Shown: positions 14,629 to 46,918 of the stretch, piece by piece
Numbering within the stretch: the first letter of the stretch is position 1
Layout of the letters: the number at the start of each line of letters is the position of its first letter
Source of the DNA: a virus
Length of the DNA stretch: 52,489 nucleotides
IMG/VR virus record: IMGVR_UViG_3300018466_000002
Location: 1-52,489 of that record
Direction: 5' to 3' (one strand)
Program-made: the position numbers and the translations under genes
Notes under the pieces: generated by a model
Databases searched by the model: none
What the model saw: the letters and a program-made list of their open reading frames with translations, nothing else
What the model was told of the DNA's origin: nothing

Positions 14629-14991
14629 ATGGCAAGACGAACGAAAGCCCGCAATCAAGAGAACATGTTCCCGCAGAAGCGCATCCCGGCGATCGAGCGT
14701 TGGATCATCAAAGCGGATGAGAAGCGCACGATGGTGGCAACGCTCAAGGATGAACTGAAGAACGCCGAGTTCAAGCTGAAGGAGGCGATTCACGCCAACG
14801 AGGCGGACGTGGCGCGGGAGGCGACCGACGACGGCGGGACCGTGCTCAAGTACGAGCGCGGGACGTACAAGGCGGAGGCGAAGCGCGGCAAAGAGACCGT
14901 CAATTACACGCGCGGCGGCGAGGCAAAGAGCGAGACGGACGTGCCGGAAGAGTCCGACCGCGACGAAGCAGAAGACGAAGGCGGCGAGTGA
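14629..14991 (+). CDS. Hypothetical highly charged protein, 120 aa
   Basis: A Lys/Glu-rich helical protein with a likely coiled coil at residues 25-55 (KADEKRTMVATLKDELKNAE) and an acidic C-terminus. It opens the recombination/replication cluster; GGAGG stands 8 nt before the ATG. Its stop shares one base with the ERF gene start. No domain recognised. Confidence 0.7.
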   Translation: MARRTKARNQENMFPQKRIPAIERWIIKADEKRTMVATLKDELKNAEFKLKEAIHANEADVAREATDDGGTVLKYERGTYKAEAKRGKETVNYTRGGEAKSETDVPEESDRDEAEDEGGE

Positions 14992-15821
14992 TGGCGAACA
15001 CCACCCGCGCCGACTACGACGACGACTTCGATTCGGAGGCTGCCGCAGCGTTCGGCGGTTCTGCCGGCGCGCTCGAAGTCACCAGCGGGGGGCTGCCGCG
15101 CAGCCCCGCCACCGCCCCTCCGAACACGGGCGACGTGGCCGGAATGCTTCAGATGGCGCTGGAGCGGAACCTCCCGGTTGAAACGCTGGAGCGCATGGTG
15201 GCGCTCTACGAACGCGTCTCGGACCGGCAGGCCGCATCAGAGTTCGCCGCGTCCCTCGCCGAGTTTCAGAACGAGTGTCCGCCGATTACGAAGAACAGCA
15301 ATGCTGAGATTGTGACGAAATCGGGTACGAGGTTTTCGTACACCTATGCGGACCTCAGCCAGATTGCGGAGACCGTGCGCCCGTTCCTACATCCGCGCGG
15401 GTTCTCTTATTCGTGGAGCGACTGCGAGGTGAAGGAGAACAGCCTCTCTGTCGTCTGCACGCTACGCCACGTCAACGGACACTCTGCGCGTGCCGCGTTC
15501 ACCTTGCCGGTCGATAACGCGTCTGCGATGAGCGCTCAACAGAAGGTCGGTGCCGCGCTGACGTACGCCAAGCGCATGAGCCTCACGCAAGTTCTCGGCA
15601 TCTCGACTGCCGATCTGGACACGGATAGCGCGAACCCTGAGCCAATCACGGCTGCGCAGCTCAACGAACTGAAGGCGCTCGCGAAGGAGGTCAACGCGAA
15701 CGAGGAGCGCTTTCTCGGCTACCTCGGCGTGAAATCGTGGGACGAGATCCGGAAAGCCGACTTCAGCGCGGCCCGCACTGCGCTCGAATCGAAGCGGCAC
15801 GCGCCGAGGGGGAAGGCATGA
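14991..15821 (+). CDS. erf: ERF-family single-strand annealing protein, 276 aa
   Basis: ERF proteins anneal complementary single strands during phage recombination and replication. The family signature is clear: a helix ending in RQAASEFAASLAEFQNECPP, then TRFSYTYADLSQIAETVRP, a variable sheet, and SAQQKVGAALTYAKRMSLTQ before the DLDTD end of the core. About 45 disordered acidic residues precede the domain. ATG 14991 is used; a GTG one codon earlier is equally possible. The partner exonuclease (15983) and RusA (16853) follow, forming a compact recombination module. Confidence 0.9.
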   Translation: MANTTRADYDDDFDSEAAAAFGGSAGALEVTSGGLPRSPATAPPNTGDVAGMLQMALERNLPVETLERMVALYERVSDRQAASEFAASLAEFQNECPPITKNSNAEIVTKSGTRFSYTYADLSQIAETVRPFLHPRGFSYSWSDCEVKENSLSVVCTLRHVNGHSARAAFTLPVDNASAMSAQQKVGAALTYAKRMSLTQVLGISTADLDTDSANPEPITAAQLNELKALAKEVNANEERFLGYLGVKSWDEIRKADFSAARTALESKRHAPRGKA

Positions 15822-15986
15822 CGGAGCGTTGGCGTCCCTGCTTCAACGGCGCGTATTCGGTATCAAGCAAGGGGCCGCGAAGCTCGCGCCAGCGGGACGC
15901 CCCTGAAAGACATAGCTGCGCTTTACGCCATCGCCGTGAGCATGGTTAGCCGAATTGCGAATCGCCGCATTTGGAGGCACCTGTGA
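15818..15986 (+). pseudogene. Remnant of an HNH homing endonuclease
   Basis: The frame from ATG 15818 starts like a NUMOD4 element (ERWRPCFNGAYSVSSKG), then reads nonsense. A second frame beginning near 15873 gives TPLKDIAALYAIAVSMVSRI followed by ANRRIWRHL and the stop at 15984-15986, which is the HTH/NUMOD-type C-terminus of the same enzyme class. The HNH catalytic core between them is missing and the two ends are in different frames, so this is a decayed gene with internal deletion and frameshift. Both borders keep 4-nt overlaps (ATGA at 15818, GTGA at 15983). Confidence 0.75.
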
Positions 15987-16717
15987 TCGTGTTGAATGTA
16001 GAACAGGGTAGCGACGCGTGGCGCACCGCAAGGCTCGGAGTGCCGACCGCAAGTGAGTTCCATAGAATCTTGACCCCGCGTACGGGCAAGTTGAGCGCCG
16101 CGGCGGATGGGTACATGGCCGAGCTTCTCGCCGAGGAGATGCTCGGCCACGCGCTCGACGAAGGGGACTCGCAGTTCATGACGCGGGGCACGGCGATGGA
16201 GCGGGACGCCGTGCGGTTCTACGAGTTCAACCAGGACACCTCGACGGAGCGTGTAGGCTTCCTGATGGACGACGGCGGGAACGTCGGGTGCAGCCCTGAC
16301 CGTCTCGTCGGCGACAAAGGCGGGCTCGAAATTAAGTGCCCGTCCGCTGCGGTGCATGTCTCCTACATGCTCGGCGCCGACGCGGACAAGTTCCGGTGTC
16401 AGGTGCAGGGCGCGCTCTGGATCACGGGCCGCGCGTGGTGGGATTGGCTCTCGTTCAACCCCGAGCTGCCGCCCGTCATGATTCGATTCGAACGTGACGA
16501 GGAGTTCATCACGAAGTTGTCCACCGCCGTCCTGCAGTTCGTGAATTACATGGACGAGGCCCGCGAGCGGCTGATCGGGAAGGGCCACATGTCGCAGGCG
16601 GTGATTGATGCGCGCGCGACGCGGCGGGCGGATCTCAGCCTGCCGCCCGCGGCGCTGCCGTTCGGGTTCGCTGAAACGCTGAAGGAACGCGAGGCGATGC
16701 AGAAGGAGGGTGCGTGA
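15983..16717 (+). CDS. YqaJ/lambda-type exonuclease, 244 aa
   Basis: This enzyme class resects double-stranded DNA to give 3' single strands for the annealing protein. Visible motifs: EQGSDAWRTARLGVPTASEF at the N-terminus, RGTAMERDAVRFYEF, the catalytic core GCSPDRLVG followed by GLEIKCPS (D...ExK), and a Q-containing helix QVQGALWITGR. The GTG at 15983 is chosen because GGAGG lies 7 nt upstream; an earlier start is not needed for the domain. Upstream ERF and downstream RusA complete the module. Confidence 0.88.
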   Translation: MIVLNVEQGSDAWRTARLGVPTASEFHRILTPRTGKLSAAADGYMAELLAEEMLGHALDEGDSQFMTRGTAMERDAVRFYEFNQDTSTERVGFLMDDGGNVGCSPDRLVGDKGGLEIKCPSAAVHVSYMLGADADKFRCQVQGALWITGRAWWDWLSFNPELPPVMIRFERDEEFITKLSTAVLQFVNYMDEARERLIGKGHMSQAVIDARATRRADLSLPPAALPFGFAETLKEREAMQKEGA

Positions 16718-16869
16718 TGCACTCCTTCCGGTTCGAGTTCGACGCTGATGAATTGATTCACGTCGGTGATGATGAGTTGGATGATCTGCTCGACACCGCC
16801 ACGCGCGCGCTTGCCGCGCTGACCGCCGAGCGCGAAGCGCGGAGGATTGCCGTTGCCGAACCCGATTGA
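16717..16869 (+). CDS. Small acidic hypothetical protein, 50 aa
   Basis: A 50-codon frame (MHSFRFEFDADELIHVGDDE then LDDLLDTATRALAAL) shares one base with the preceding stop (TGATG) and overlaps the RusA start. GGAGG appears 8 nt before its ATG inside the exonuclease end. Acidic helix; no function recognised. Confidence 0.6.
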   Translation: MHSFRFEFDADELIHVGDDELDDLLDTATRALAALTAEREARRIAVAEPD

Positions 16870-17308
16870 GTTCACCATTCCGGGCGTCCCTGTCCCCAAG
16901 GGGCGCCCGCGCGGCCGGATGATCGGCAAGGGTCCGATGGCGCGCGTTCAAATCTACACGCCGCCCGAGACGCAAGCGGCGGAGTCGAACTTTCTCATGC
17001 GCGCGAAGAAGCACCGCCCGCCGCACATGCTCGACGGGCCGTTGCGCGTGGACATCCTTTTCGTTGTGCCGGCGCCCGCCAGCCTGCATGGCGATCGTTC
17101 GCGCAAGTGGCCCGAGGTGCGGCCCGACATCGACAACTATTCGAAGCTCGTGCTGGACGCGCTGAACGGCATCTTCTGGCACGACGACGGGCAGGTGTGC
17201 GCCTCCAGCGTCGTGAAGGTCTACGGCCATCCGCCGCGCACTGAGGTGCGGATCACGAAGCTGTCCGACGTTGACGAGGCACAACACGCGCTGTGGGAGG
17301 GACGATGA
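16853..17308 (+). CDS. rusA: RusA-type Holliday junction resolvase, 151 aa
   Basis: RusA enzymes cut four-way junctions arising in recombination-dependent replication. FTIPGVPVPKGRPRGR is the family N-terminus and RPDIDNYSKLVLDALNG followed by FWHDDGQV carries the metal-binding Asp cluster. TTG 16853 is chosen since GGAGG is 7 nt upstream; a second TTG two codons earlier is possible. It overlaps the 50-aa gene by 17 bp. Confidence 0.88.
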   Translation: MPNPIEFTIPGVPVPKGRPRGRMIGKGPMARVQIYTPPETQAAESNFLMRAKKHRPPHMLDGPLRVDILFVVPAPASLHGDRSRKWPEVRPDIDNYSKLVLDALNGIFWHDDGQVCASSVVKVYGHPPRTEVRITKLSDVDEAQHALWEGR

Positions 17309-17652
17309 AAACTACTTTCATGATCGCCATGACGGACGGCCCGCGCGAAGTCTTCGGCTTCGTCGACGGGTTCTTCGGGATCGACGAGCGCACTCCCGGC
17401 GTGTGGTGCGTCACGCACATCCGTACGGGGAACAACCTGTCTCGGATGGCGGCGCCGACGCTTGACGCTGCGAGGGAAGCTGTCGCGATCCTGAACGATC
17501 ATCCCGACATCTGGAACAACGGGCGCTTCGGTCGGGAGTACTCGGCTGTGTCGCGCTTGAAGTGGCTGCGCGAGATGCGCAAGTTCGCGCAGTCGCCGGA
17601 GGGGCGGCGCGTGAAGACGTTGCTGCCGCTGCAGATCGCGGAGGGCGAATGA
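17305..17652 (+). CDS. Hypothetical protein, 115 aa
   Basis: ATGA overlap with rusA. Globular alpha/beta protein (TTFMIAMTDGPREVFGFVDG, then VWCVTHIRTGNNLSRM) without recognised motifs. Co-transcription with recombination genes suggests an early function. Confidence 0.65.
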   Translation: MKTTFMIAMTDGPREVFGFVDGFFGIDERTPGVWCVTHIRTGNNLSRMAAPTLDAAREAVAILNDHPDIWNNGRFGREYSAVSRLKWLREMRKFAQSPEGRRVKTLLPLQIAEGE

Positions 17653-17990
17653 TCCTTGCCTTCCTCTGCGGTTTTGGCACCTGCGCCCTCCTCGTCTTCG
17701 CCTACGAGGCATGGACCTCGCGCCCCCGGCGCTTCGTGCAGCGTGGCAACTACCGGGACGCCCGCTCACCCTTCAGGATCGAATCGCGCGGCCCTGAGCC
17801 CGTCGTGGAGCGGCCGGAGACGCTGATTGCGCGGGAGGCGCGGAGGGCGATCGGCCGCGGCGAAGCACTCCCTCCGTACGAGGAGTTCGAACGCCTCCTG
17901 AATGCAGCCGTTCAACACCACGGTACGCCAGACGACATACCCGCATGGGCTGATCGTCTAGCGCACGAGGTGGGCAAGATGAACGACTAA
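17649..17990 (+). CDS. N-terminally anchored membrane protein, 113 aa
   Basis: Begins with a membrane segment (ILAFLCGFGTCALLVFAYEA) and continues with about 90 soluble, charged residues likely on the cytoplasmic side. ATGA overlap with the preceding gene. It closes this transcription unit before the promoter at 18022. Function unknown. Confidence 0.65.
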   Translation: MILAFLCGFGTCALLVFAYEAWTSRPRRFVQRGNYRDARSPFRIESRGPEPVVERPETLIAREARRAIGRGEALPPYEEFERLLNAAVQHHGTPDDIPAWADRLAHEVGKMND

Positions 17991-18021
17991 CTGCGGCTAC
18001 GCGATTCGCCACGTTCCGCGT

Positions 18022-18027
18022 TACAAT
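18022..18027 (+). promoter_or_regulatory. -10 element TACAAT before the replication genes
   Basis: TTACAATGTGGCATCGGAGC: the predicted start is near 18034-18035, giving a leader of about 13 nt with a GGAG-type site before the ATG at 18048. Confidence 0.55.
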
Positions 18028-18047
18028 GTGGCATCGGAGCGTGACAA

Positions 18048-19001
18048 ATGGAATTTGCAGTCTTCTCCCGCCGCATCCTCACGGGCACAGTTTCGGACCT
18101 CCCTCCCGCTGTTCGCATTGCATGGATCACCGTCCTTTTCGAGGCTGAAAAGCTGCGCGGAAAGGTGAAGCTGCCGGTGCGCGATCTCGCCAAGATGGCA
18201 TCCATCAGCACGCCTGAAGCTGCTGAGGCGCTTCGGGTTTTTCAGGAGCCTGACCCCTACTCAAGCACGAAGGAACACGAGGGGCGCCGCCTCCTCCCGG
18301 TTGACGGCGAAGAGGACTGGTACATCGTCGCGACGTGGGAAAAGCATGCCGAAGAACGCGCCCTTTTCTTCGCCCGCTTGCGCCAGCAACGGTCCCGTGC
18401 TCGTAACGCTGCGTCACGTCCAGTAACGGAGAGTAACGGTGCGTCACGCTCTGTCACGAAGGAACCGGAACCGGAACCAACTCCGGAACTAAGAGAGAAG
18501 AAACCAGAGAGCACATTCGCGGGCGCGCGCGAGGGGATCTCGGGACCGAAAGAGGAGCCGAAGTCCGATGCTGTGCCAGTCCCGGACTTCGACGCGGTGA
18601 AGGGGGTCGACGACAAGCTTGCGGCGTCCGCGCTGAAGGTGCCGCCACCGCATCAGGTGACCGCCGCATGGGTGAGCGACTACGGCGAGGAGTTGATCGT
18701 CGAGACGCTGGCCGATTGCGAAGACCAGTACAAGGGCAAGCACTTCAAGTATCTGGAGTCGATCCTGACGAACAGGCGAGACAATCCTGATCAGCGACCG
18801 GGCAACAGGCGAGCACGGAGGACCGATGGTGAAAACGGAAGAGGACGAGGAACAGGCCGCGCTCGAAGCGATGCAGGAGAGGCTCCGCCAGTTGCGCGAA
18901 ACCCTCTCGGAGACTTCGGCATGCGCGACGGGCGAGACGTTATCCGCGAACTTAAGGCCAAACGGGAACTGCAGGAAATGCAAAACAAGCCTTCCTCCTG
19001 A
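18048..19001 (+). CDS. DnaD/O-like replication protein, 317 aa
   Basis: The architecture fits phage replisome organisers: an N-terminal winged-helix-like domain (residues about 1-110, with KLPVRDLAKMASISTPEAAE and WYIVATWEKHAEER), a low-complexity Pro/Glu linker, and a C-terminal DnaD-like part (VTAAWVSDYGEELIVETLAD followed by KGKHFKYLESILTNR). Such proteins bind the origin and recruit the helicase loader, which is the next gene here. Its last 176 bp overlap that gene in another frame. Confidence 0.75.
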   Translation: MEFAVFSRRILTGTVSDLPPAVRIAWITVLFEAEKLRGKVKLPVRDLAKMASISTPEAAEALRVFQEPDPYSSTKEHEGRRLLPVDGEEDWYIVATWEKHAEERALFFARLRQQRSRARNAASRPVTESNGASRSVTKEPEPEPTPELREKKPESTFAGAREGISGPKEEPKSDAVPVPDFDAVKGVDDKLAASALKVPPPHQVTAAWVSDYGEELIVETLADCEDQYKGKHFKYLESILTNRRDNPDQRPGNRRARRTDGENGRGRGTGRARSDAGEAPPVARNPLGDFGMRDGRDVIRELKAKRELQEMQNKPSS

Positions 19002-19629
19002 GCGCCTGTTCGTCTGCGAAGCGTGCGAGGAAGTCGCGGCGCAGTGGAACGCACGGCAGAGGCTTGCGCGGATCGACACGAACATGAGGCGCAGCGGACT
19101 CCCGCTCGCGTACCAGAGCGGGCAGCGCACCCTCGCCGATGTTCGCAACGAAGAAGCGCTCGTGCTCGCGCGCGCGGTGCTCTCCGGCGAAGTGCGCGGG
19201 ATGTACCTGTACGGGTCCGCCGGCGAGGACAAGACGACGATTGCGTGCGCAACGCTGGCGCAGCTGATTCGAAACGGCGGCAGCGGTTTGTACGAGAACT
19301 CGCTGGACCTGATGGCGGACATTCACGCGGCCTTCGTGCCCAACTCGGGACTGTCGCGGCAGGACGTGGTGCGCGATCCGATTCAGGCTCACGCGTTCCT
19401 GCTTGACGACTTCGGGAAGGAGAAGGGCAGCGAGTTCTCCGCGGGGGTGATCTACCAGATTCTCGATGGTCGGTACAATTACCTGACCGTGGACTCGCGC
19501 CGTGTGCTCATCATCGTGTCGAACCATGCACCCGCGGATGCGTGCGCGCGGTTCGGGGATCCGACGATGGTGCAGCCGATCATGCGCAGGATCTCGGAGC
19601 TCACGGTGGCGATGGAGATGAAGTCGTGA
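18826..19629 (+). CDS. DnaC-like AAA+ helicase loader, 267 aa
   Basis: The protein would load the replicative helicase. Cys49/52/64/67 form an N-terminal zinc finger, as in many DnaC-like loaders. The ATPase core has YLYGSAGEDKTTIA (Walker A, 130-137), AFLLDDFG (Walker B) and RVLIIVSNH (sensor 1). The last Gly of the P-loop consensus GxxxxGK(T/S) is Asp135, which is unusual. The zinc finger is encoded inside the overlap with the upstream gene, so at least ~30 nt are truly read in two frames. Confidence 0.85.
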   Translation: MVKTEEDEEQAALEAMQERLRQLRETLSETSACATGETLSANLRPNGNCRKCKTSLPPERLFVCEACEEVAAQWNARQRLARIDTNMRRSGLPLAYQSGQRTLADVRNEEALVLARAVLSGEVRGMYLYGSAGEDKTTIACATLAQLIRNGGSGLYENSLDLMADIHAAFVPNSGLSRQDVVRDPIQAHAFLLDDFGKEKGSEFSAGVIYQILDGRYNYLTVDSRRVLIIVSNHAPADACARFGDPTMVQPIMRRISELTVAMEMKS

Positions 19630-19898
19630 CGAAGCGAGCGGCGAAGGTGGCGCGCCTCGTGACGCGCGGCAAGCCATGCCCGCCCGATAAGATCGAGGCG
19701 TTGGAATCACTGGTCGAGCAAGCAAAAAGCGGCGAGGTGACGAGCTTCATCTTCGTTGCGATCGGCCCAACGATTGAGAACTGGCAGGACGGATGGTTGG
19801 CGAATCGGATCGACCGCTATTCGCTCCTCGGCATGCTTTCGATGGCTTCGCGAATGGTGCAAGACCGAGAGCAGGAAGTGTCGGAAGCGGAAAGTTGA
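19626..19898 (+). CDS. Hypothetical protein, 90 aa
   Basis: GTGA overlap with the helicase loader. A short alpha/beta protein (GEVTSFIFVAIGPTIENWQ) of a kind often found beside phage replication genes; no named family recognised. Confidence 0.65.
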   Translation: MTKRAAKVARLVTRGKPCPPDKIEALESLVEQAKSGEVTSFIFVAIGPTIENWQDGWLANRIDRYSLLGMLSMASRMVQDREQEVSEAES

Positions 19899-19945
19899 AG
19901 ATTCCTCTTGCGCTACCGTGTTACATGCCGTAGCATGCGTGCATC

Positions 19946-20275
19946 TTGAAACGTCAGAGCAGCGGAATGGCGGACATCGTGGCGGAACTGATGCCGCCGG
20001 GATGCGATGACCTCGCGGCGGTCATGCGCGAGATGCGGCCGAACGGCGCTGCATGGGAAGCGCCACTCGTTGACTACTCCCCGCAGATCCTCTCTGAGGT
20101 ACGGCCAGCGAACCGCGAGAACCGCGGCGAGAACCACGAGTCGCCACAGATCGGAAGGAAAGTCGTCGCGATCCCGAAGCGATGGTCTGCGTCGTCGCCC
20201 GTGGCAAAGTTCTGCGCGCTCTGTCACCACCCATTCCATCTTCGCCGATGCAAGCGATGCACGTGCGGCGAGTAG
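19946..20275 (+). CDS. Hypothetical protein with C-terminal Cys cluster, 109 aa
   Basis: The C-terminus FCALCHHPFHLRRCKRCTCGE is a probable zinc site. The start is uncertain: TTG 19946 overlaps the stop of a four-codon frame beginning 19935, and an in-frame ATG at 19967 lacks an SD site. I give the longer form. The gene lies 47 nt after the replication cluster. Confidence 0.55.
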   Translation: MKRQSSGMADIVAELMPPGCDDLAAVMREMRPNGAAWEAPLVDYSPQILSEVRPANRENRGENHESPQIGRKVVAIPKRWSASSPVAKFCALCHHPFHLRRCKRCTCGE

Positions 20276-20297
20276 CACAAACAGAGAAGGAGATAGG

Positions 20298-20615
20298 ATG
20301 ACGAAACCGATGACGAGTTACAGACGAGTGAGCGGCGACATTGATGAGGCGATAGCGATTCATGCGTTGCTACAGCAGGACTTCGAGACGCGGCTGCCGG
20401 AACTGCGGAACGACACGAAGGCAATCGCGAAGGCTGCGGCGCGCGTCGAGAAGTGGGCGGAGATCGTCGCGGACCTGAGCACGCCCGCGCCGAAAGCGTC
20501 AACGGCGGTGCCGGCTGGCGAGGCGGCTGCTACGACCGCAATTGCGCCGGTCGACCCCGCGGCACCCAGCCGCTCCAAGCCGCGTCCCAACACCGGCACC
20601 AACCCCACGGCGTAG
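20298..20615 (+). CDS. Hypothetical helical protein, 105 aa
   Basis: GAAGGAGAT precedes the ATG. Residues 1-65 are helical (IDEAIAIHALLQQDFETRLP and on), and the rest is a Pro/Ala/Thr-rich tail likely to be disordered. No recognised domain. Confidence 0.65.
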   Translation: MTKPMTSYRRVSGDIDEAIAIHALLQQDFETRLPELRNDTKAIAKAAARVEKWAEIVADLSTPAPKASTAVPAGEAAATTAIAPVDPAAPSRSKPRPNTGTNPTA

Positions 20616-20657
20616 GCCAGACCCCGCGCCGATCTCAACGAAAGGAGGAACGCACCG

Positions 20658-20816
20658 ATGAGCAACTACGACCCGAACGCCGATCTCGACAGGCAGAAGC
20701 GGGAAGACGACGCCGACGCCGCATCGAAGCAGGCCAACCCCGGCGACGACGACACGCCGCCGACTGGCGAGAATGCCGGACGCTATCCCGGCAGCGCCGG
20801 CGACGAAGCGAAGTAG
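20658..20816 (+). CDS. Small Asp/Gly-rich hypothetical protein, 52 aa
   Basis: A strong AAAGGAGG lies about 9 nt upstream. The product is acidic, low-complexity and probably disordered (SNYDPNADLDRQKREDDADA). The terminator just downstream supports a real short gene at the end of a unit. Confidence 0.65.
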   Translation: MSNYDPNADLDRQKREDDADAASKQANPGDDDTPPTGENAGRYPGSAGDEAK

Positions 20817-20845
20817 CCCTGCAGCGCGATTGTCACGGTTTGTGG

Positions 20846-20872
20846 GCGCCGGTCGAAAGGCCGGCGCTTTTT
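20846..20872 (+). terminator. Rho-independent terminator
   Basis: A 7-bp GCGCCGG/CCGGCGC stem (20846-20852 with 20861-20867) and 8-nt loop are followed by TTTTT. Confidence 0.85.
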
Positions 20873-20910
20873 GATTCACAACCCGCCGCTGGTCGCGAAG
20901 ACCGGGTGCT

Positions 20911-20916
20911 TACTGT
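20911..20916 (+). promoter_or_regulatory. Extended -10 TACTGT for the 20934 gene
   Basis: TGCTTACTGT lies after the terminator, with AAGGAG in the short leader before the ATG at 20934. Confidence 0.5.
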
Positions 20917-20933
20917 GTGAAGGAGATCAAGAC

Positions 20934-21530
20934 ATGAAGCGTTTGATTCTGCTGTGCGTGGTAACGATGCTGGCCGTGATGACGTACGCGCAACCGGCCG
21001 TGGAGAACCCTGACGACGGCTTCAACGATGGCGGCGGCGTCTGCAAGGCGTGCCTCACGTGGTCGGTCAACACGATCTACCCAGGCGGCGGCTACAGCGG
21101 CGAGTGGGAGCACCACGCCGAGTGCGTGCCCGGCAACGAGACTTCCACGCCCGGCGACAGGTACCGGAATTGTCGAGTGGAGTCGTATCCGAGCGGTTCC
21201 AGCTCCACCGGGCAATACTGCGTGATGTCAACCGTTTGTGGCCCCACGTCCGGAGGCGGCGGCGGGGGCGGGTGGTTGCGCGGTGACGACGCGGCCGACG
21301 AGGTGGAAGGGGCAAAGATCGTACTCTTCTTCCGCGACTCCGGGCTGATGACACGCGAGGATCTCGCCGAGTTCGTGGGCGATTTGTACGACTCGGGCGC
21401 AGACGCCGGCATGCGACTCGGTTCCTACCGCGCAAAGTTCCTCAGCCTCACAGGGCGTCCGCTCGCCGAAGGGCAGGTGCCGGTGATGCCGACCGCGCGT
21501 ACGGCGCGCGACGTCATCCGGCAGGAGTAA
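20934..21530 (+). CDS. Exported Cys-rich protein, 198 aa
   Basis: A typical signal peptide (MKRLILLCVVTMLAVMTYAQ) precedes a mature part with Cys near VCKACLTW, ECVPG, NCRVE, YCVMSTVCG and a run of Gly, then a helical C-terminal domain. The Cys spacing suggests disulphides outside the cytoplasm. It has its own promoter and SD, set off by a terminator, so it may be expressed independently, for example as a superinfection or host-surface factor; that role is speculation. It overlaps the convergent gene at 21514 by 17 bp. Confidence 0.65.
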   Translation: MKRLILLCVVTMLAVMTYAQPAVENPDDGFNDGGGVCKACLTWSVNTIYPGGGYSGEWEHHAECVPGNETSTPGDRYRNCRVESYPSGSSSTGQYCVMSTVCGPTSGGGGGGGWLRGDDAADEVEGAKIVLFFRDSGLMTREDLAEFVGDLYDSGADAGMRLGSYRAKFLSLTGRPLAEGQVPVMPTARTARDVIRQE

Positions 21531-22003
21531 GGATCCGGTTCCGCAGATCACTCCAGAGCGCCTGCATCTCCTCGGGAGTCAGGCGCTCACCTTCGTCCGG
21601 AAACGGCTCGTCCTTCACCCTATACAGCAGGCGCACAGTGTCCGCGATCTCCTGATCGCCGCGTTTCGATGTTCGCGTCTGGGCAGTGATACACGCCCGC
21701 CTTTTCGAGTGAGTTCAGTTGGCCCTGCTCAAGCATCAGACAACCGGAGAACGCGCCGCCGTTCTCCTGTCCGAGAACCATCAAACCGCCGTCCGGCGCG
21801 GTGTTGGACCACATGGAGTAGTACTCCCCCAACTCCTCGTCGTGGATTGTCGCGCGCTTGCGCTCAAGCCGACGATCTTCCTTGAGCGTCACCAGCAACG
21901 CTTCGTCCGCGGCGGAGTAGATGTCGTCAGGCGAGAGTAGCGCGAGTTGGGCGGAGGTGTAGCTTCCTAGCGGCTTGCCGAAGGGAATGCTAAGTTGCTC
22001 CAC
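21514..22003 (-). pseudogene. Frameshifted minus-strand gene, about 162 aa if restored
   Basis: The frame from GTG 22003 (MEQLSIPFGKPLGSYTSAQL on to GVYHCPDANIETRRSGD) hits a stop at 21620, but a +1 shift near the codons for RRSGD continues as QEIADTVRLLYRVKDEPFPD and ends at 21514 with LRNRILTPAG. Both parts look genuine and the second has no start of its own. A one-base loss, an assembly error or programmed frameshifting would explain it. The start lies 6 nt after TATCAT. Family not recognised. Confidence 0.6.
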
Positions 22004-22009
22004 GGATGG

Positions 22010-22015
22010 ATGATA
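22010..22015 (-). promoter_or_regulatory. -10 element TATCAT (leaderless) beside tandem repeats
   Basis: Minus strand TATCAT, six bases, GTG at 22003. The 11-bp tandem repeats at 22021-22052 lie just upstream of this promoter. Confidence 0.55.
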
Positions 22016-22020
22016 CCGCC

Positions 22021-22052
22021 AAGCGTCGAGGAAGCGTCGAGGAAGCGTCGAG
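22021..22052. repeat. Three tandem 11-bp repeats (GAAGCGTCGAG)
   Basis: Unit GAAGCGTCGAG occurs as 10+11+11 bp head to tail between the Xre gene end and the -10 of the convergent minus gene, occupying the -35 region; they could be operators. Confidence 0.8.
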
Positions 22053-22058
22053 TAAAAA

Positions 22059-22265
22059 TTACCGATCAACCAGCTCGCCAAGCCGTACGCCGAGGGCGCG
22101 GGCGAGCCGGAGCACAGTCGTTAGTTTCGGATCATTCGCGCCGTTCTCGATCCGGCTCAGTTGTACCGGTGTCAGCCCAGCCGCTTCGGCAAGCCGCTCC
22201 TGAGTCCAGCGACGGGCGTCGCGCAGCTCGCGGACACGTTGTAACTCGGCAAAGTCGAACGCCAT
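22059..22265 (-). CDS. Xre-type HTH repressor, 68 aa
   Basis: The product is essentially one lambda-repressor-like HTH: ELRDARRWTQERLAEAAGL (helices 1-2), TPVQLSRIENGANDPKL (recognition helix) and TVLRLARALGVRLGELV. It lacks a cleavage or oligomerisation domain. The ATG at 22265 has AAGGG upstream; an earlier ATG at 22319 adds a basic, unlikely leader. It is the only clear transcription regulator in the window and could act on the repeats beside it or on the palindromic promoter family. Confidence 0.85.
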   Translation of the reverse strand: MAFDFAELQRVRELRDARRWTQERLAEAAGLTPVQLSRIENGANDPKLTTVLRLARALGVRLGELVDR

Positions 22266-22444
22266 GCCGCCCTTCGCTCTGCCGCAACGGCGACCGCGCG
22301 CGATCCCAGCGAAGGCCATGCGTGTATTGAACGAGCACCCGCCCGATTGCTGGTGTCGGTGGCATCAGTTCATGCGCCTCACGACCATCGTGAACTGATC
22401 CCGCCTTCCCTTTCGTCCACAGGTTGACTATCCTCGAAGTCCGA

Positions 22445-23014
22445 ATGGGCGACGCGCCGACACAGCAGGAAGTTGACCGTGAACAGGCGATGCTCCTGCT
22501 CTACTCGCAGGGCTACTCTTTCGCCGCGATGGTCGGCCCGCTGCACGCGTTCAACCTACTCAAGTGCGACGATCTCCACCGCGACCGTCAGGACGGCCGC
22601 GGCGGCAAGGTCTGCGCGACCTGCGAGAACACGATTGCGGCAACGTGGCGCCGGCACATGGCCCGAATCGGCGCGGACAAAGAGGAGATCGCGGAGGTCA
22701 AAGGCGCGTGGCTCACGGTACACATGCTCGTTGAGCAGATCTGCATCTCGCGCTTCGCGAGCGATGTCGTGACCACCGAGACGCGAACCGAGATTGTCGA
22801 CGGGCAGCCCGTGACCACCACGACAGAGCGGCGCGAACCTCGCACCAACGTCGGACTGTTGCGCCTCATGTGCGAGGTGCGTGACAAGATGGCGCGGATG
22901 GGCGGGCTAAACGTGAAGAATCCTCCCTCCTCGCGCAAGGTTTCGCGCAGACTGCTCGCAGTGACCGAGCGCACCAATGAGCCCGACGAACACGGAGACG
23001 GCCCCGCCAACTGA
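22445..23014 (+). CDS. terS: Putative terminase small subunit, 189 aa
   Basis: The gene directly precedes and overlaps by 38 bp the large terminase gene, the usual place of the small subunit that recognises phage DNA for packaging. A CDDLHRDRQ/CATCENTI segment suggests a zinc site near residues 40-65; a long helical C-terminal part follows. ATG 22445 is used; TTG at 22424 would add seven residues. The call is by position; I see no decisive sequence signature. Confidence 0.65.
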   Translation: MGDAPTQQEVDREQAMLLLYSQGYSFAAMVGPLHAFNLLKCDDLHRDRQDGRGGKVCATCENTIAATWRRHMARIGADKEEIAEVKGAWLTVHMLVEQICISRFASDVVTTETRTEIVDGQPVTTTTERREPRTNVGLLRLMCEVRDKMARMGGLNVKNPPSSRKVSRRLLAVTERTNEPDEHGDGPAN

Positions 23015-24779
23015 CGAGACGGTGAACATCGCGCTCTGGCCGCATCAGATCGAGGCCGTCTACAACTGCGATCAATACCGGTGGCTGAACGAGATCGGCG
23101 GCCGCGGCTCCGGCAAGACGTTCAAGGATCGAGTTCGCATCGTCCGGTGGGCGGAGATGTGCACGGAGCTGCCCTTCGGCATCTTCGGCGCGACCGAAGA
23201 GATGCTGCAGTCCGCGCTCACCCCCATCCGCGAGACGATCGAGGAGATGGGGATTGACCATGTGTACGGCACGCGCGTGCCTCCGGAGTGGCAAGCGCAG
23301 TGGGATTACGAGGGAATCCCTTACCCGGCGCAGCGCCTGCGCTCCACAAAGTTCTGGATATGGGAGAACGGCGCGCACTTCTTCACGGGCTCCATCGTGA
23401 ACAACGCGGTGACGCGCGCGAAGGGCATCGACTTCAACTGCATTCTGGTCGTTGAGGGAACGGAGCCGGGCGTCGACCTGAAGGCCATCATGACGCTGTA
23501 CGGTGGCCTGCGCTGTGGCTCGGCCACACGTGGGAGCGATGGCGTCTGGCGCTGCCGCGTGCCGGGCCATCTTCACCAACTCGTCTTCGAAGGCAACGTC
23601 CCGCTGAATGACCCGTCACACTGGATCTACAAGAAAAACGAACGGATGCTCGCGCAGGAGGAGGCGCGCAAGGTTCAGGGTCTCCCCCCGTTCTATCGCC
23701 TGCTCACGTCGAGCACGAAGGACAACCCCGCAACGGGCGCCGACTACGACGACGGTCTACGCGCGATGTTCGATGAGACCACCTACATCGAGCAGACGAG
23801 CGGGGAACTGAAGCGCAACGTCGCACGCCTGTCGTACCACGCCTTCTCCGATCAGAACATCCTCGACACGCTGGTCTACGACCCGCGTCGGCCGCTGCAC
23901 ATCTGGTTTGACTGGAACGCCACGCCGGCCGCTGTCGGATGGGGCCATGACCTGCAGGCGCACGAGGTGCCGGAGCACGAGCGCGCGAAGGGACGCAAAT
24001 ACTTCGGCATCATTGGAGAACTGTTCTCCGGCGAGGACCCGCTGCACACCGACCAGGTAGCGGACGCGTTGCTCGTTGACGGCAGCGCCAAGAGCGACGG
24101 CCCGTGCGTCCACTGCAACCACGAAATGAAGGTGCACATGGTGACCGGCTCAGGATGGCTCTGCAAGCCCTGCCAATGGACGGTGCCGGGAGTCAAGCCG
24201 GACCAGTATTGCTCCGGAGTCGTGAAGGCATCCCCGTTGAACCCGACCACGCAGGCCAAGTACATCCACGCCCCGGACAACTGGCGCGGACTGATGCGCC
24301 ATCGCGGCATGGTGCACGTCTACGGCGACGTGAACGACGGGCGGGGAAACGCGGCGTCCGTAGCCGGCGGATCGATCCAGATCCTTCGCGACGTGCTCGG
24401 GGATGCGCTCGGGGACCGTGTCGCGTTCCACTTCCCGCCCGTCAACCCGCGCGTGAAGCTGCGCGCGCTAGCCGTGAACCGAGGGTTTCAGGACGCCGAC
24501 CGAAAGCGCAGCGTGTTCATTCACTCGCGCTGCGAGGCGCACATCACCGACTTCCGCGAGGTGATCCCCGACCCGAAGACGGGCGAACCGCTGAAGGTCA
24601 GCAAGTCGCCATCGCAACGGAAGCAGGGGAACGACTACTGGCTGCGCACGGACATCTCCGATGCATGGGGTTACCACTGGAGCCTGCGCTACCCGTTCAT
24701 CCGGCCGGGATCGTCGGGCATGCCGCTGGGGATGGACGAGGAAGATTACGGGCCGTTCGCAACATTCGCGGAACCGTGA
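22977..24779 (+). CDS. terL: Terminase large subunit, 600 aa
   Basis: This packaging motor has an N-terminal ATPase with Walker A GGRGSGKT (41-48) and CILVVEG as the Walker B/catalytic Glu region (about 155-161; the usual Asp before Glu is Val). The C-terminal nuclease is suggested by IWFDWNATPAAVGW (near 310) and VYGDVNDG (near 450). Between them, residues about 377-399 hold CVHC...CKPC, a zinc-ribbon-like insertion not normal for the family. ATG at 22977. Confidence 0.88.
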   Translation: MSPTNTETAPPTDETVNIALWPHQIEAVYNCDQYRWLNEIGGRGSGKTFKDRVRIVRWAEMCTELPFGIFGATEEMLQSALTPIRETIEEMGIDHVYGTRVPPEWQAQWDYEGIPYPAQRLRSTKFWIWENGAHFFTGSIVNNAVTRAKGIDFNCILVVEGTEPGVDLKAIMTLYGGLRCGSATRGSDGVWRCRVPGHLHQLVFEGNVPLNDPSHWIYKKNERMLAQEEARKVQGLPPFYRLLTSSTKDNPATGADYDDGLRAMFDETTYIEQTSGELKRNVARLSYHAFSDQNILDTLVYDPRRPLHIWFDWNATPAAVGWGHDLQAHEVPEHERAKGRKYFGIIGELFSGEDPLHTDQVADALLVDGSAKSDGPCVHCNHEMKVHMVTGSGWLCKPCQWTVPGVKPDQYCSGVVKASPLNPTTQAKYIHAPDNWRGLMRHRGMVHVYGDVNDGRGNAASVAGGSIQILRDVLGDALGDRVAFHFPPVNPRVKLRALAVNRGFQDADRKRSVFIHSRCEAHITDFREVIPDPKTGEPLKVSKSPSQRKQGNDYWLRTDISDAWGYHWSLRYPFIRPGSSGMPLGMDEEDYGPFATFAEP

Positions 24780-35570: not shown

Positions 35571-35902
35571 GGCAGGTTGCGGACTGGCCTGACGGTACGG
35601 TGTGCGGCGCCGTCTTCAGCGACGATCTTCAGCACCGGTACCTGCTGTTCCGCATTCTTCCCGACGCGCCGAAGCTGTTCCTCGGTACGCGCCCACGCTT
35701 CCCGCTGTTCCTGATGCTGAACCCGAGCACGGCCACACACGAGCAGACTGACCCAACGGTGACGAGATGCGCGGGCTTCGCGAAGGCGTGGGGATACGGC
35801 TCGTTGACGCTGTATCATGGCCAGCGATGGCCAACGTCGTCTCCATCTTCAACCGGGGCATCGTGCCAACGTCGGACGCGGCGCGCGAACGTGCGGACCT
35901 GA
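35567..35902 (+). pseudogene. Truncated DUF1643 protein
   Basis: The first 80 residues match DUF1643: HRYLLFRILP, then PLFLMLNPSTATHEQTDPTV and CAGFAKAWGYGSLTL. Members normally continue for another 60-80 residues from that strand, but here the frame changes to an Arg/Ser-rich tail that is simply the portal gene's start read out of frame. The 3' half is missing, apparently lost where the portal gene joins. It may be a relic kept in a coupled operon. Confidence 0.65.
35813..35818 (+). promoter_or_regulatory. -10 element TATCAT before portal
   Basis: TGTATCAT lies 8 nt before the portal ATG at 35827, with TTGACG a short distance upstream. Confidence 0.4.
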
Positions 35903-37389
35903 AGCGCACCCTCCTCGAATCCTCGTACACGCGCGAAATCTACGGCCCCGGCGTGGACGAGTGGGATGTCAAGCCCGACGATCTCATGCCGGACCCCGAC
36001 GAGATGCAGTCGCGGTGGGGATTCGCGGACGACACGGTCTTTGACGACATGGCCGGGAACGTCCTCCCGTACGGCGGCTTCGTCGAAGGGCGGATGGATG
36101 TTTCGATGTCCCTCAAGCTCTCCTTTTTGGTCGGTGTGAAGGGTGACAAGGAATCCGAGGAAGCGCGGGACGAGATCGAAGCCTGCTACAACGCCATCCC
36201 CGAAAGGTTCACCGTTGAGCGCGAGATGTGCCGCGCCGCCGAGCGCGGATTCATGGGCGCCGAGAACGTCTTCGGCGTGCAGAGCATCGGGCCGGCGAAG
36301 GGACTCGTGACCATCGTTGAGATGTTCAACCGCCCGCGCAAGATGTTCGCGTTCGACTGGCGCAATCGGCCGTGGTTCAAGCCGCACGGCCGCATCGACA
36401 CGCCCACGCGCATTGACGACTACAAGGTGACTTTTTCCCGCCAAGGCTCGCTCCACACGAAATACGGCAGCGGGTACGGGCAGCGCTGCTACCCCACCGT
36501 GTTTGCCATTGACCGGATGATGAAGCAGCACATGGCCGCAGTTGAGCGCGCGTCGTGGATGCCGATCATCGTCAAGCACCCGCGCAAGTGGGACGAACGC
36601 CGCCGCCGCGCGGAATACGCCATCTTCAAATCGCAGTGGAAGAACGTCCTGCTTGTGCCTGCGGATGTGGACGAGGCCACGCCGGTACCGCTCAGTGACA
36701 GCCTCGCCACGCATGAGTACACGGGCAACGCCAGAATGGAACTGATCCGCGAACTCGTCTCCGCCCTCGCCGGCTTCATTCGAGGATCGCAGCTCAGCTC
36801 TGGCAACCAACAGGAAGGCTCTTACGCGCGCGACGTGAACGCCGATTCGGCGCAGCTCTGGAAGGCGCCCACCGACGCGGCGGCACGCGAGGCGATGTGG
36901 AACCGCGGCCTGATCGAGCCGACGATGCTCGCCAACCGTCCGAACATGGACCGCGCGAAGTGGCCGCGGTGCTCGGTCGACGCATCCTTCGGTGAGGATC
37001 TCCGCCTCTTCATGGAACTCTGCGAGCAGGGCGCGCGGAACGGGGTGCGCATTGCCACGGTGACATGGTCCGAGCGGACCGGAATCCCCATCGCGTCCGA
37101 CGATGAGCCGAACGTGCTGACCGTCCCGCAGGCGCCATCCGTTGCCCCGCTGCTTCCTGACGGCATGGCTGCGGACGAGTTCGAAGATCCGACCACGGGC
37201 GCCGTACGTCGCATGAGCGAACCGGCATCCATCCGCATCCGGTTGGAAGATGGCCGGGTTGCTTGGATGCGTCCCTCCGCGCCCGTCCTCACGGACAAGG
37301 GGATCGTGATGGCGAAGCACTGCGTCGGCGGGGGAGCGGTGAAGCTGCTCAGCGCTGGCGCGCAGAAGTTCGGGCGCGCGGCTTCGTGA
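35827..37389 (+). CDS. Portal protein, DUF935/Mu gp29-like, 520 aa
   Basis: The portal forms the DNA entry ring of the capsid. The 520-residue size, position before the gpF-like gene and central segments (MMKQHMAAVERASWMPIIVK, then KWDERRRRAEYAIFKSQWKN, LVPADVDEATPVPL) suit the DUF935-type portal. C-terminal residues 440-520 hold a beta-rich tail. ATG 35827 is chosen; an in-frame ATG 60 nt upstream gives an unlikely extension. Confidence 0.75.
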   Translation: MANVVSIFNRGIVPTSDAARERADLKRTLLESSYTREIYGPGVDEWDVKPDDLMPDPDEMQSRWGFADDTVFDDMAGNVLPYGGFVEGRMDVSMSLKLSFLVGVKGDKESEEARDEIEACYNAIPERFTVEREMCRAAERGFMGAENVFGVQSIGPAKGLVTIVEMFNRPRKMFAFDWRNRPWFKPHGRIDTPTRIDDYKVTFSRQGSLHTKYGSGYGQRCYPTVFAIDRMMKQHMAAVERASWMPIIVKHPRKWDERRRRAEYAIFKSQWKNVLLVPADVDEATPVPLSDSLATHEYTGNARMELIRELVSALAGFIRGSQLSSGNQQEGSYARDVNADSAQLWKAPTDAAAREAMWNRGLIEPTMLANRPNMDRAKWPRCSVDASFGEDLRLFMELCEQGARNGVRIATVTWSERTGIPIASDDEPNVLTVPQAPSVAPLLPDGMAADEFEDPTTGAVRRMSEPASIRIRLEDGRVAWMRPSAPVLTDKGIVMAKHCVGGGAVKLLSAGAQKFGRAAS

Positions 37390-44608: not shown

Positions 44609-45142
44609 GTGGCCACGTTCACGCTGCAATACCAACTCGGCGAAGTCTCCCATCTGCTCACGATGGTTGAGACGCGCGCCGACGATCCCTCGGACCTGAT
44701 GGCGGATCACCTCCTGCTGCTGATCCGGTCGACGCAACTCAACTTTGAGGAGCAGGGGCGCCCAGTTCCATTCGCTGAACTCGCACCCTCAACAGAACGG
44801 CGCCGGTTCGCCAAGGGCATGAAGGGCAAGGGAGCCAAAGCGCTCGGCTCTCTCGCCGTGCTCGGGTCCACTCAGATCCTGCGCGACACCGGCCTACTCA
44901 TGCAGTCGCTCGGAGCGGGAGCGAGCGGACCATTCGAAGCGGCGGACGGATTCGGCGAGTCGGACAAGTTCACGGCGGTGCTCGGGACGAACAGGCCGGG
45001 CGCCGATGCGCTGCAAGTGGGATACGCGCCGAACAATCTCCCCTCCCGCGAGTACGTGCTCTTTCAGGAGCAGGACGAGACGGACCTTCTGCGAATGACC
45101 GAGGATTGGATGATGGGGACGGGGCCGTACGCGGAAGTGTGA
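44609..45142 (+). CDS. Virion morphogenesis protein, Mu gpG/tail-completion-like, 177 aa
   Basis: The sequence QILRDTGLLMQSLGAG is the common DTG-x-L segment of gpG-like proteins. N-terminal helices and a C-terminal NNLPSREYVLF part also fit. They act at the head-tail interface. GTG start, leaderless. Its stop codon is part of the promoter that drives the structured RNA. Confidence 0.7.
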   Translation: MATFTLQYQLGEVSHLLTMVETRADDPSDLMADHLLLLIRSTQLNFEEQGRPVPFAELAPSTERRRFAKGMKGKGAKALGSLAVLGSTQILRDTGLLMQSLGAGASGPFEAADGFGESDKFTAVLGTNRPGADALQVGYAPNNLPSREYVLFQEQDETDLLRMTEDWMMGTGPYAEV

Positions 45143-45148
45143 TACAAT
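45143..45148 (+). promoter_or_regulatory. Extended -10 TACAAT driving the structured RNA
   Basis: TGATACAATGCGCGACACG: the motif is complete, but ACG stands at the start position and no coding frame follows. GTGATA and TATCAC flank the site as an inverted repeat. Confidence 0.65.
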
Positions 45149-45784
45149 GCGCGACACGTTATCACAGCGAGGGTGCGGAACACGTAACCTGCCCGTGCAG
45201 CCCGTGACCACAACACCCTGTCACCATGCCAAGGCGCGTATACACATTAGTGCGACGCCGAACCGGAAAGGGGCCGGTAGCCAGCGCGGAGCGAGTCGGT
45301 TGCGCAGTGAGGCACAGAACCTGCCGAGCAGTCCGAGGGAAACGCGAAGGACGGGCCAGCAACGGGCACTGCTGGCCGAGCAGTTCGTAACGAAATGACC
45401 CGCCGTACACGGACGAGAGAGTTGGACGCGGCGGGTCAGGGTGAACGGTTCCGCGAGGGGCCGTTCACTGGTTTCTGTGAACCCTGACCGGCTATCGGGC
45501 AACCGAAACGCCGAGCGTGATAGTGAGGCCACGCTGGAAAGGGAGTCGGCGCCTCCATCGCGAGCCGACTCCCTCTTTGACAACTGATTCGGGAACGTGC
45601 GGCGACAGCGCACGCGGCGCCCGGTGATGAGCAGCCGGCGGTTTTGTGAAGACGTTTTCCGTCGTCAAGCCCTCAAACCTCAGGCCACCGAAAGCGGGGA
45701 GACGCTGCGAAAATAATCCCCACTGACACGGGCGGACTCGTTCCGCCCCGTACGCGCCCGGATCAGTTGTGAGGAGAGTGTTCT

Positions 45785-45873
45785 GGACGAGCCTCCGGTT
45801 GAGGTGGCGGGCACGCGACCCGCGCAAAGACAAAGCGGCAAGATGTACGGCGGTTCGACTCCGCCCCTCGTCC
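45785..45873 (+). other. tRNA-like domain within the structured RNA
   Basis: GGACGAG (45785-45791) pairs with CTCGTCC (45867-45873). Between them are a 5-bp stem with 7-nt loop (GCGGG/CCCGC, 45807-45823; loop CACGCGA lacks U33) and a perfect T-arm GGCGG-TTCGACT-CCGCC at 45849-45865. No normal D-arm, so not a standard tRNA. Confidence 0.5.
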
Positions 45874-45874
45874 C

Positions 45875-45896
45875 CGTTCGTTGAAAACAGGTTCAG
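45875..45896 (+). repeat. Imperfect repeat of the 24-nt stem arm, copy 1
   Basis: CGTTCGTTGAAAACAGGTTC resembles 46062-46083 with one substitution and one missing G, and could compete for the same 3' arm. Confidence 0.7.
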
Positions 45897-45909
45897 ACCA
45901 GCGGAGGTC

Positions 45910-45933
45910 GCGGGTTCGAATCCCGCCCCGTCG
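45910..45933 (+). other. Second canonical T-arm with acceptor-like 3' strand
   Basis: GCGGG-TTCGAAT-CCCGC is a textbook T stem-loop, followed by CCCGTCG where an acceptor 3' strand would lie; no exact 5' partner is nearby. Confidence 0.55.
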
Positions 45934-45962
45934 TGCGAGGCCCACATGCCGGGCTAATCCTC

Positions 45963-45986
45963 GACGAGGTAGCGCAGGGGTAGCGC
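45963..45986 (+). other. 5' tRNA half (acceptor strand, T8-A9, D-arm)
   Basis: GACGAGG, TA, then GCGC-AGGGGTA-GCGC. The first seven bases pair perfectly with CCTCGTC at 45866-45872, which follows the upstream T-arm, i.e. in permuted order. Confidence 0.5.
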
Positions 45987-46061
45987 GCCGAACCACGGCC
46001 CGCAAGGGAGCGTGGAGTGCACCGGACGGCGGAGTGGGCATGTCGCTCCGTCCGTTCCGCT

Positions 46062-46085
46062 CGTTCGTTCAAAACAGGGTTCAGG
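46062..46085 (+). repeat. 24-nt stem arm, copy 2
   Basis: Pairs with 46175-46198 over all 24 positions (22 Watson-Crick, 2 U-G). Confidence 0.8.
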
Positions 46086-46201
46086 TAAGCGCGCCGGTGA
46101 AGGCGGCAGTGCGGTCCGCAGTCGGCTCCGGTGAGGACGACACGGACTGGAAACCGTCAGAAGCCGGATGAACCCCTGAACCCTGTTTTGAGCGAGCGCG
46201 G

Positions 46202-46207
46202 TACACT
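46202..46207 (+). promoter_or_regulatory. -10 element TACACT before the 46217 gene
   Basis: TACACT 9 nt before GTG 46217, directly after the terminal RNA stem. Confidence 0.45.
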
Positions 46208-46216
46208 TCTCCCCGC

Positions 46217-46918
46217 GTGACCATCCCCGTAACCTTCTCGGCACCGCCTGACGAAACGTTCCCTGAGCTCAACGGGTACGTGCCGTCACTTGAGGACTCC
46301 ATCCGCAAGGGCGTGTGGCTCATGCTCCGAGCGGATGACGTGAACAGGAAGGCGCACAGCAACGATCCGGAAGATGCGGCGGCGGGCGTGAACATCTATC
46401 AGGGGCGGCCCGCCTACGATCCCGACCGCCTCTCCATCAAGCGTCTCCCGTGTCAGGTCGTGGACATCGCGCCGGCAGGAAGCGACTTCCGGTATCTGAC
46501 CGCGAACGCGGGCGAGCGGATCATCATCGTCGGCGTCTCCTTGCTCAACGCTGCAAGCACCGCCCTGCTCCCCGAGGATGCATCGGTGACGACGGAGGCC
46601 ATGCTGTCCAGAGTGCGATCTATCCTGATGCGTGGCACGTTGTGGAAGTCGGACATGTCGACGAACAAAGGACGGGTGATTGATCCCTTCTTTGCGCCGC
46701 GCAACGAGGACGGCACGTACGCCGCTCCGCCGCCTTCCGCATACCTGAACATGGAGGGGCCGGACATCAGGCCATCGTCCCCGCGCTACATTCAGAATCG
46801 CTACGTGCGAACGGCGAAGGAGGCGGAGGATCTGCACCCCGTCCGCGATTTCGCTGTATCCTTCGGTTGGCGCGCGGCTTACAGGATCATCGTCGGAGAC
46901 CGCGACACGCCACGTTAA
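46217..46918 (+). CDS. Tail terminator / minor tail protein candidate, 233 aa
   Basis: A mixed alpha/beta protein of 233 residues lying between connector genes and the tail tube, where tail terminator proteins are found. No decisive motif seen (RIIIVGVSLLNAASTALLPE, SFGWRAAYRIIVGDRD). GTG start. Confidence 0.6.
   Translation: MTIPVTFSAPPDETFPELNGYVPSLEDSIRKGVWLMLRADDVNRKAHSNDPEDAAAGVNIYQGRPAYDPDRLSIKRLPCQVVDIAPAGSDFRYLTANAGERIIIVGVSLLNAASTALLPEDASVTTEAMLSRVRSILMRGTLWKSDMSTNKGRVIDPFFAPRNEDGTYAAPPPSAYLNMEGPDIRPSSPRYIQNRYVRTAKEAEDLHPVRDFAVSFGWRAAYRIIVGDRDTPR

Follow-up and report, generated by a model that had tools for sequence, protein, structure and literature searches.

A candidate Y-RNA-type tRNA mimic with a second T-arm in the late structural region of a phage genome

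Our analysis suggests that a phage carries a noncoding RNA in a part of its genome where no likely gene was found. We consider it reasonably likely that this 1.07-kb stretch encodes an RNA with a module of the Y-RNA (YrlA) type, in which a T-arm, an acceptor-like stem-loop and a D-arm follow one another (Table 1). The candidate RNA is probably a divergent Y-RNA-type tRNA mimic, unusual in having a second T-arm; a tRNA gene split into halves is the less likely reading. The window analysed is a whole 52-kb IMG/VR record (IMGVR_UViG_3300018466_000002; 52,489 nt), classed as linear, and the arms sit within its late structural region. The initial annotation had described T-arm 1, CCTCGTC, GACGAGG, TA and the D-arm as tRNA halves in reversed order, and the sequence bears out the position of each; the second T-arm and the competing strand GGACGAG that it also mentioned are present. 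The order T-arm, acceptor, D-arm truly corresponds to a circularly permuted tRNA, and the pieces are not those of a normal tRNA. Such an order needs no cut gene, because the YrlA module has its T-arm first in a continuous chain. The tRNA-like domain of YrlA is described as a T-arm, an acceptor stem-loop and a D-arm (PMC11472068; PMC8394870), and the Y RNA in the crystal superposes on tRNA through a circular permutation (PMC11472068). YrlA binds Rsr/Ro through its basal stem and PNPase through its tRNA-like domain, and TruB and DusA modify it (PMC8394870). Y RNAs of phages have already been published, with mycobacteriophages named and a Ro/Y pair proposed for a Listeria phage (PMC12282133), and TROVE proteins are reported in a subset of jumbo phages (PMC7824862). 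Our searches of open-licence papers gave no report of a form with two T-arms.

Table 1. Coordinates of the arms, strands, repeats and neighbouring genes of the locus
Feature	Position	Strand	Basis
Neck1/tail-completion gene, 5' neighbour of the 1.07-kb stretch	44609-45142		
1.07-kb stretch without a likely gene	45143-46216	+	downstream genes closely packed
GGACGAG, local competitor for the 3' strand of T-arm 1 (45867-45873)	45785-45791	+	
T-arm 1, GGCGG-TTCGACT-CCGCC	45849-45865	+	sequence
CCTCGTC, acceptor 3' strand of the initial annotation, directly after T-arm 1	45866-45872	+	
Repeat A, between T-arm 1 and module; near copy of repeat B	45872-45891	+	
Y-RNA-like (YrlA) permuted tRNA-mimic module (candidate)	45902-45993	+	RF02553 match
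AGGTC, canonical tRNA variable loop 5' of T-arm 2	45905-45909	+	unit comparison
T-arm 2, GCGGG-TTCGAAT-CCCGC	45910-45926	+	sequence, arm-pattern count
Acceptor-like stem-loop, 45927-45933 with 45962-45969; A45967 bulged, inner hairpin in loop	45927-45969	+	
GACGAGG, acceptor strand before T8-A9; pairs 7/7 with 45866-45872	45963-45969	+	
T8-A9 (TA)	45970-45971	+	
D-arm GCGC-AGGGGTA-GCGC, perfect	45972-45986	+	sequence, arm-pattern count
Repeat B, 5' hairpin arm; 92% complementary to partner 46175-46198	46062-46085	+	probability 0.996-0.999
Repeat C, 3' arm of the B hairpin; 80% complementary to A	46175-46198	+	
Structural-region gene, 3' neighbour of the 1.07-kb stretch	46217-46918		

The two perfect T-arms and the one D-arm lie within 140 bases and are the sole matches of their kind on the + strand of the window. 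On the - strand the T-arm pattern matches twice and the D-arm pattern not at all, and shuffled windows give per-strand means of 0.4 T-arms and 0.15 D-arms. The permuted order is not a product of chance, and the acceptor helices of both T-arms exceed chance expectation. For T-arm 1, shuffling of the 104 nt that separate it from the D-arm gave a helix of equal strength in 11 of 5000 trials and a flush one in 1 of 5000; for T-arm 2, with a spacing of 43 nt and a one-base bulge in the helix, the corresponding counts were 113 and 14 of 5000. The duplex energies are -11.8 kcal/mol (T-arm 1) and -8.7 kcal/mol (T-arm 2). Among 884 non-cognate acceptor combinations of real tRNAs, 9 reach 7/7 pairs, 1% are as stable as the T-arm 1 helix and 13% as stable as that of T-arm 2. 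An open frame on the - strand (45492-45947) encodes a GAGFEPATS-like peptide, which is the antisense of a T-arm; such peptides are a familiar kind of erroneous annotation on tRNA-like DNA.

In a permissive Rfam search of the stretch the top bit score was that of RF02553 (YrlA) on the module, with 31.8 bits and an E-value of 9.4e-5 against a curated gathering score of 69; at gathering scores the whole 52-kb window has no Rfam match. Neither the module nor a further 12 viral records, some of which have Ro genes, reached the score of 69, and matches at E 10 or below occur in 13 of 14 control genomes. Pairs of adjacent tRNA genes score alike (32.0 bits in GX15bay; 34.9 and 34.2 bits in the viral record G001). 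Since such pairs give the same order of arms and an equal score, the YrlA score alone proves nothing, and we dropped it as proof of a Y RNA. The same facts lend some weight to the unlikely reading that the locus holds degenerate tRNA genes, that is, one or two 3' tRNA halves standing ahead of the 5' half of a following tRNA, which have lost their anticodon arms and would not function as a unit. The D-arm form TAGCGCAGNGGTAGCGC is found in phage tRNA genes, and the presence of two T-arms against one D-arm also suits this reading. Against it, ARAGORN finds no complete tRNA in the window, every arm is perfect, which decay would not favour, and the 3' flanks of both T-arms pair with the 5' flank of the D-arm better than shuffles do. 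When a pattern with the same D-arm form was scanned, all 18 matches overlapped ordinary tRNA genes found by ARAGORN; their acceptors form 0-5 of the 7 pairs, and their duplex energies range from 1.3 to -8.0 kcal/mol. The locus is set apart from adjacent tRNAs by the absence of tRNAs and by the pairing of the strands that follow the T-arm and precede the D-arm.

The preferred reading, a Y-RNA-type mimic, was compared with units in other phages. BLAST with 45895-46000 as query pointed to phages that carry a YrlA-like unit next to an annotated Ro-like gene, the units scoring 37.9 bits in Kingsolomon and 44.1 bits in Trax. The T-arm/D-arm pattern occurs at four loci in viral contigs, of which one (L028) is a tRNA pair and three are non-tRNA units. 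Of 21 retrieved RF02553 matches, 15 have no ARAGORN tRNA overlap; 13 of these and one unit of the Caulobacter phage CcrPW that was read by eye make up a set of 14, from which L051:388-495 (odd T-loop) and L058 were left out. In the 14 units the gap is 19-48 nt and the acceptor pairs 7/7 in ten, with 1, 4, 5 and 6 of 7 in the remaining four; its energy is -8.7 kcal/mol or lower in 11. Several phage units have GGTC at the variable-loop position. The acceptor loop of our module is longer than in most of the units compared. The units of Trax, Kingsolomon and CcrPW resemble the module in layout and spacing, but they adjoin a Ro-like gene, whereas the module lies among structural genes. The TROVE profile confirmed the gene of Trax, found a 477-codon frame in CcrPW and missed the annotated Ro-like gene of Kingsolomon. 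The CcrPW frame is annotated merely as hypothetical; beside it, at 115900-117700 (L011 1140-2110 / L053), about five Y-RNA-like units form an array in which GGTGGCGTAG and GTTCCCC recur, flanking several units, and one unit seemingly has a T-arm without a D-arm. The nearest layout is that of G004 (IMGVR_UViG_3300037247_001602; L029 / L052), with a 46-nt gap and a 7/7 acceptor. One of its two tandem units shares a GCGGGTTCGAATCCCGC T-arm and the 46-nt acceptor loop; unlike our locus, the record has two ungapped 7/7 acceptors, a D-arm in each unit and vWA and MoxR-type genes as neighbours. ARAGORN finds no tRNA in L029 of this record, where the tandem permuted units lie next to a gene with a vWA domain and to a MoxR gene that belongs to the MoxR-vWA-beta-propeller type. 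In two large viral records (G001, 392-kb; G002, 252-kb) Y-RNA-like units are dispersed among tRNA arrays, and several of them have an upstream GACTACAT-like motif in common. With the bacterial YrlA (RF02553; crystal structure 6CU1) the module shares the order T-arm, acceptor stem-loop, D-arm in a single chain, its acceptor having one bulge; it differs in its score (31.8 vs 69 bits), in that no Ro gene or clear Ro stem is seen, and in the extra T-arm 61 nt upstream.

Which T-arm partners the D-arm? T-arm 2 is the likelier partner and we place it well ahead of T-arm 1, although the choice is not settled; we prefer it because its spacing, canonical variable loop and folding energy fit. Across seven sequence contexts the T-arm 2 acceptor has a mean pair probability of 0.38-0.89. 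For the competitor strand GGACGAG the value is at most 0.002. Both 45895-46000 and 45866-46000 reach their energy minimum with the T-arm 2 module folded; in 45874-46000 the module is 2.2 kcal/mol less stable than the minimum-energy fold. For 45785-46000 the energies are -90.3 (free fold), -84.0 (T-arm 2 forced) and -79.0 kcal/mol (T-arm 1 forced). The probability of the D-arm is only 0.02 in the longest contexts, under energy models that leave tRNA tertiary contacts out. A fork CGG/CCG (45902-45904/45988-45990) looked plausible by eye and was rejected at a predicted probability of 0.0. The initial annotation had paired T-arm 1 with the D-arm; its ungapped helix does beat chance, but the choice of T-arm 1 is probably wrong on spacing, variable loop and energy. 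We regard as quite improbable the alternative in which CCTCGTC/GACGAGG is the working acceptor and T-arm 2 lies in a 90-nt insert, whether in a long-loop Y RNA or in a permuted tRNA that is circularised and cut. T-arm 1 stays a candidate because its ungapped 7/7 helix, which has exact tRNA geometry, is rarer in shuffles than that of T-arm 2; GCCG at 45987-45990, complementary by inspection to CGGC at 45836-45839, could add further pairs. Its gap of 104 nt, however, compares with 19-48 nt in the 14 units, its helix has a pair probability of 0.000-0.001 in the contexts that include T-arm 1, its forced fold is 5 kcal/mol worse than that of T-arm 2, and it has a 9-nt variable loop and no anticodon arm visible at the expected position. 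The form first proposed, a tRNA gene in permuted order or a tmRNA in two pieces, is not supported: ARAGORN in its non-permuted mode reports neither tRNA nor tmRNA in the window, and no anticodon arm is seen by eye. The two-piece (permuted) tmRNA is scarcely credible, since the partial match to RF00023 (18.6 bits, gathering 47) is carried by T-arm sequence, no permuted-tmRNA family is found in the stretch even at E 10, and a tmRNA lacks the full D-stem that is present at this locus.

Around the Y-RNA-type module we looked for a Ro partner, a Ro-binding stem and a promoter. The TROVE profile at E 10 finds nothing in the contig, a linear record that may be a fragment, and the same profile misses the gene of Kingsolomon; Pfam at E 0.001 places TROVE, vWA or MoxR domains in 0 of 38 window ORFs. 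No convincing Ro-binding stem is seen, the 5' flank pairing with itself in the unconstrained fold, and a short stem GGTTC/GAACC has a probability of 0.001-0.21. No sigma-70-like promoter was found. Repeats A and C flank the module, and the pairing of B with C is stronger than that of A with C. B and C form a strong 24-bp inverted repeat around 89 nt, directly ahead of the 46217 gene; further inverted repeats in the stretch lie at 45580-45602 / 45748-45770 and 45431-45442 / 45481-45492. The region 45772-46210 folds better than its shuffles (z -3.84), an excess much of which is probably carried by the B/C hairpin, and 45874-46070 folds no better (z -0.31). Relatives of the window were not detected by a phage DNA search at E 1e-5, by viral-contig scans with three window proteins, by a terminase scan of genome contigs or by tblastn of the portal against phages; the terminase has one distant match (25.7% identity). 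In tblastn, 22 window ORFs gave 0 matches to L007, L008, L011 and L026-L029, the gene at 46217-46918 matched none of 6 whole records, and close-copy patterns occur in neither viral nor genome contigs. Recombination genes (ERF, YqaJ, RusA) and a portal of the Mu type are also present in the window (14988-24779 and 35767-37389), in a genome with almost no detectable relatives.

What would such an RNA do for the phage? We propose that it would be transcribed together with the late structural genes and, using T-arm 2, would fold as a single continuous chain into a counterpart of the tRNA elbow and acceptor, with no free 3' end. Host proteins that bind the tRNA elbow, such as tRNA-modifying enzymes or PNPase, may recognise the module, as may a Ro protein of either host or phage. 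Its role might be that of a tether or a decoy; acting as a Y RNA, it would link a Ro protein to such an effector. Because no Ro gene, clear Ro stem, or TROVE, vWA or MoxR domain was found, a decoy role or reliance on a Ro protein of the host is as much open as a phage Ro encoded on a missing part. T-arm 1 would most simply be a remnant or paralogue of an adjacent unit. That the two T-arms compete for the one D-arm and acceptor strand, giving a late-expressed, two-state mimic that works without a phage Ro, for example as a decoy for tRNA-binding enzymes of the host, is a long shot. The Rfam YrlA model by itself cannot separate RNAs of this kind from adjacent tRNA genes. If the Y-RNA-type reading is true, phage stretches in which a T-arm precedes a D-arm merit a check for Y RNA before they are labelled permuted tRNAs, and tRNA-mimicking Y RNAs would extend to a phage without recognisable relatives and possibly without a Ro gene.
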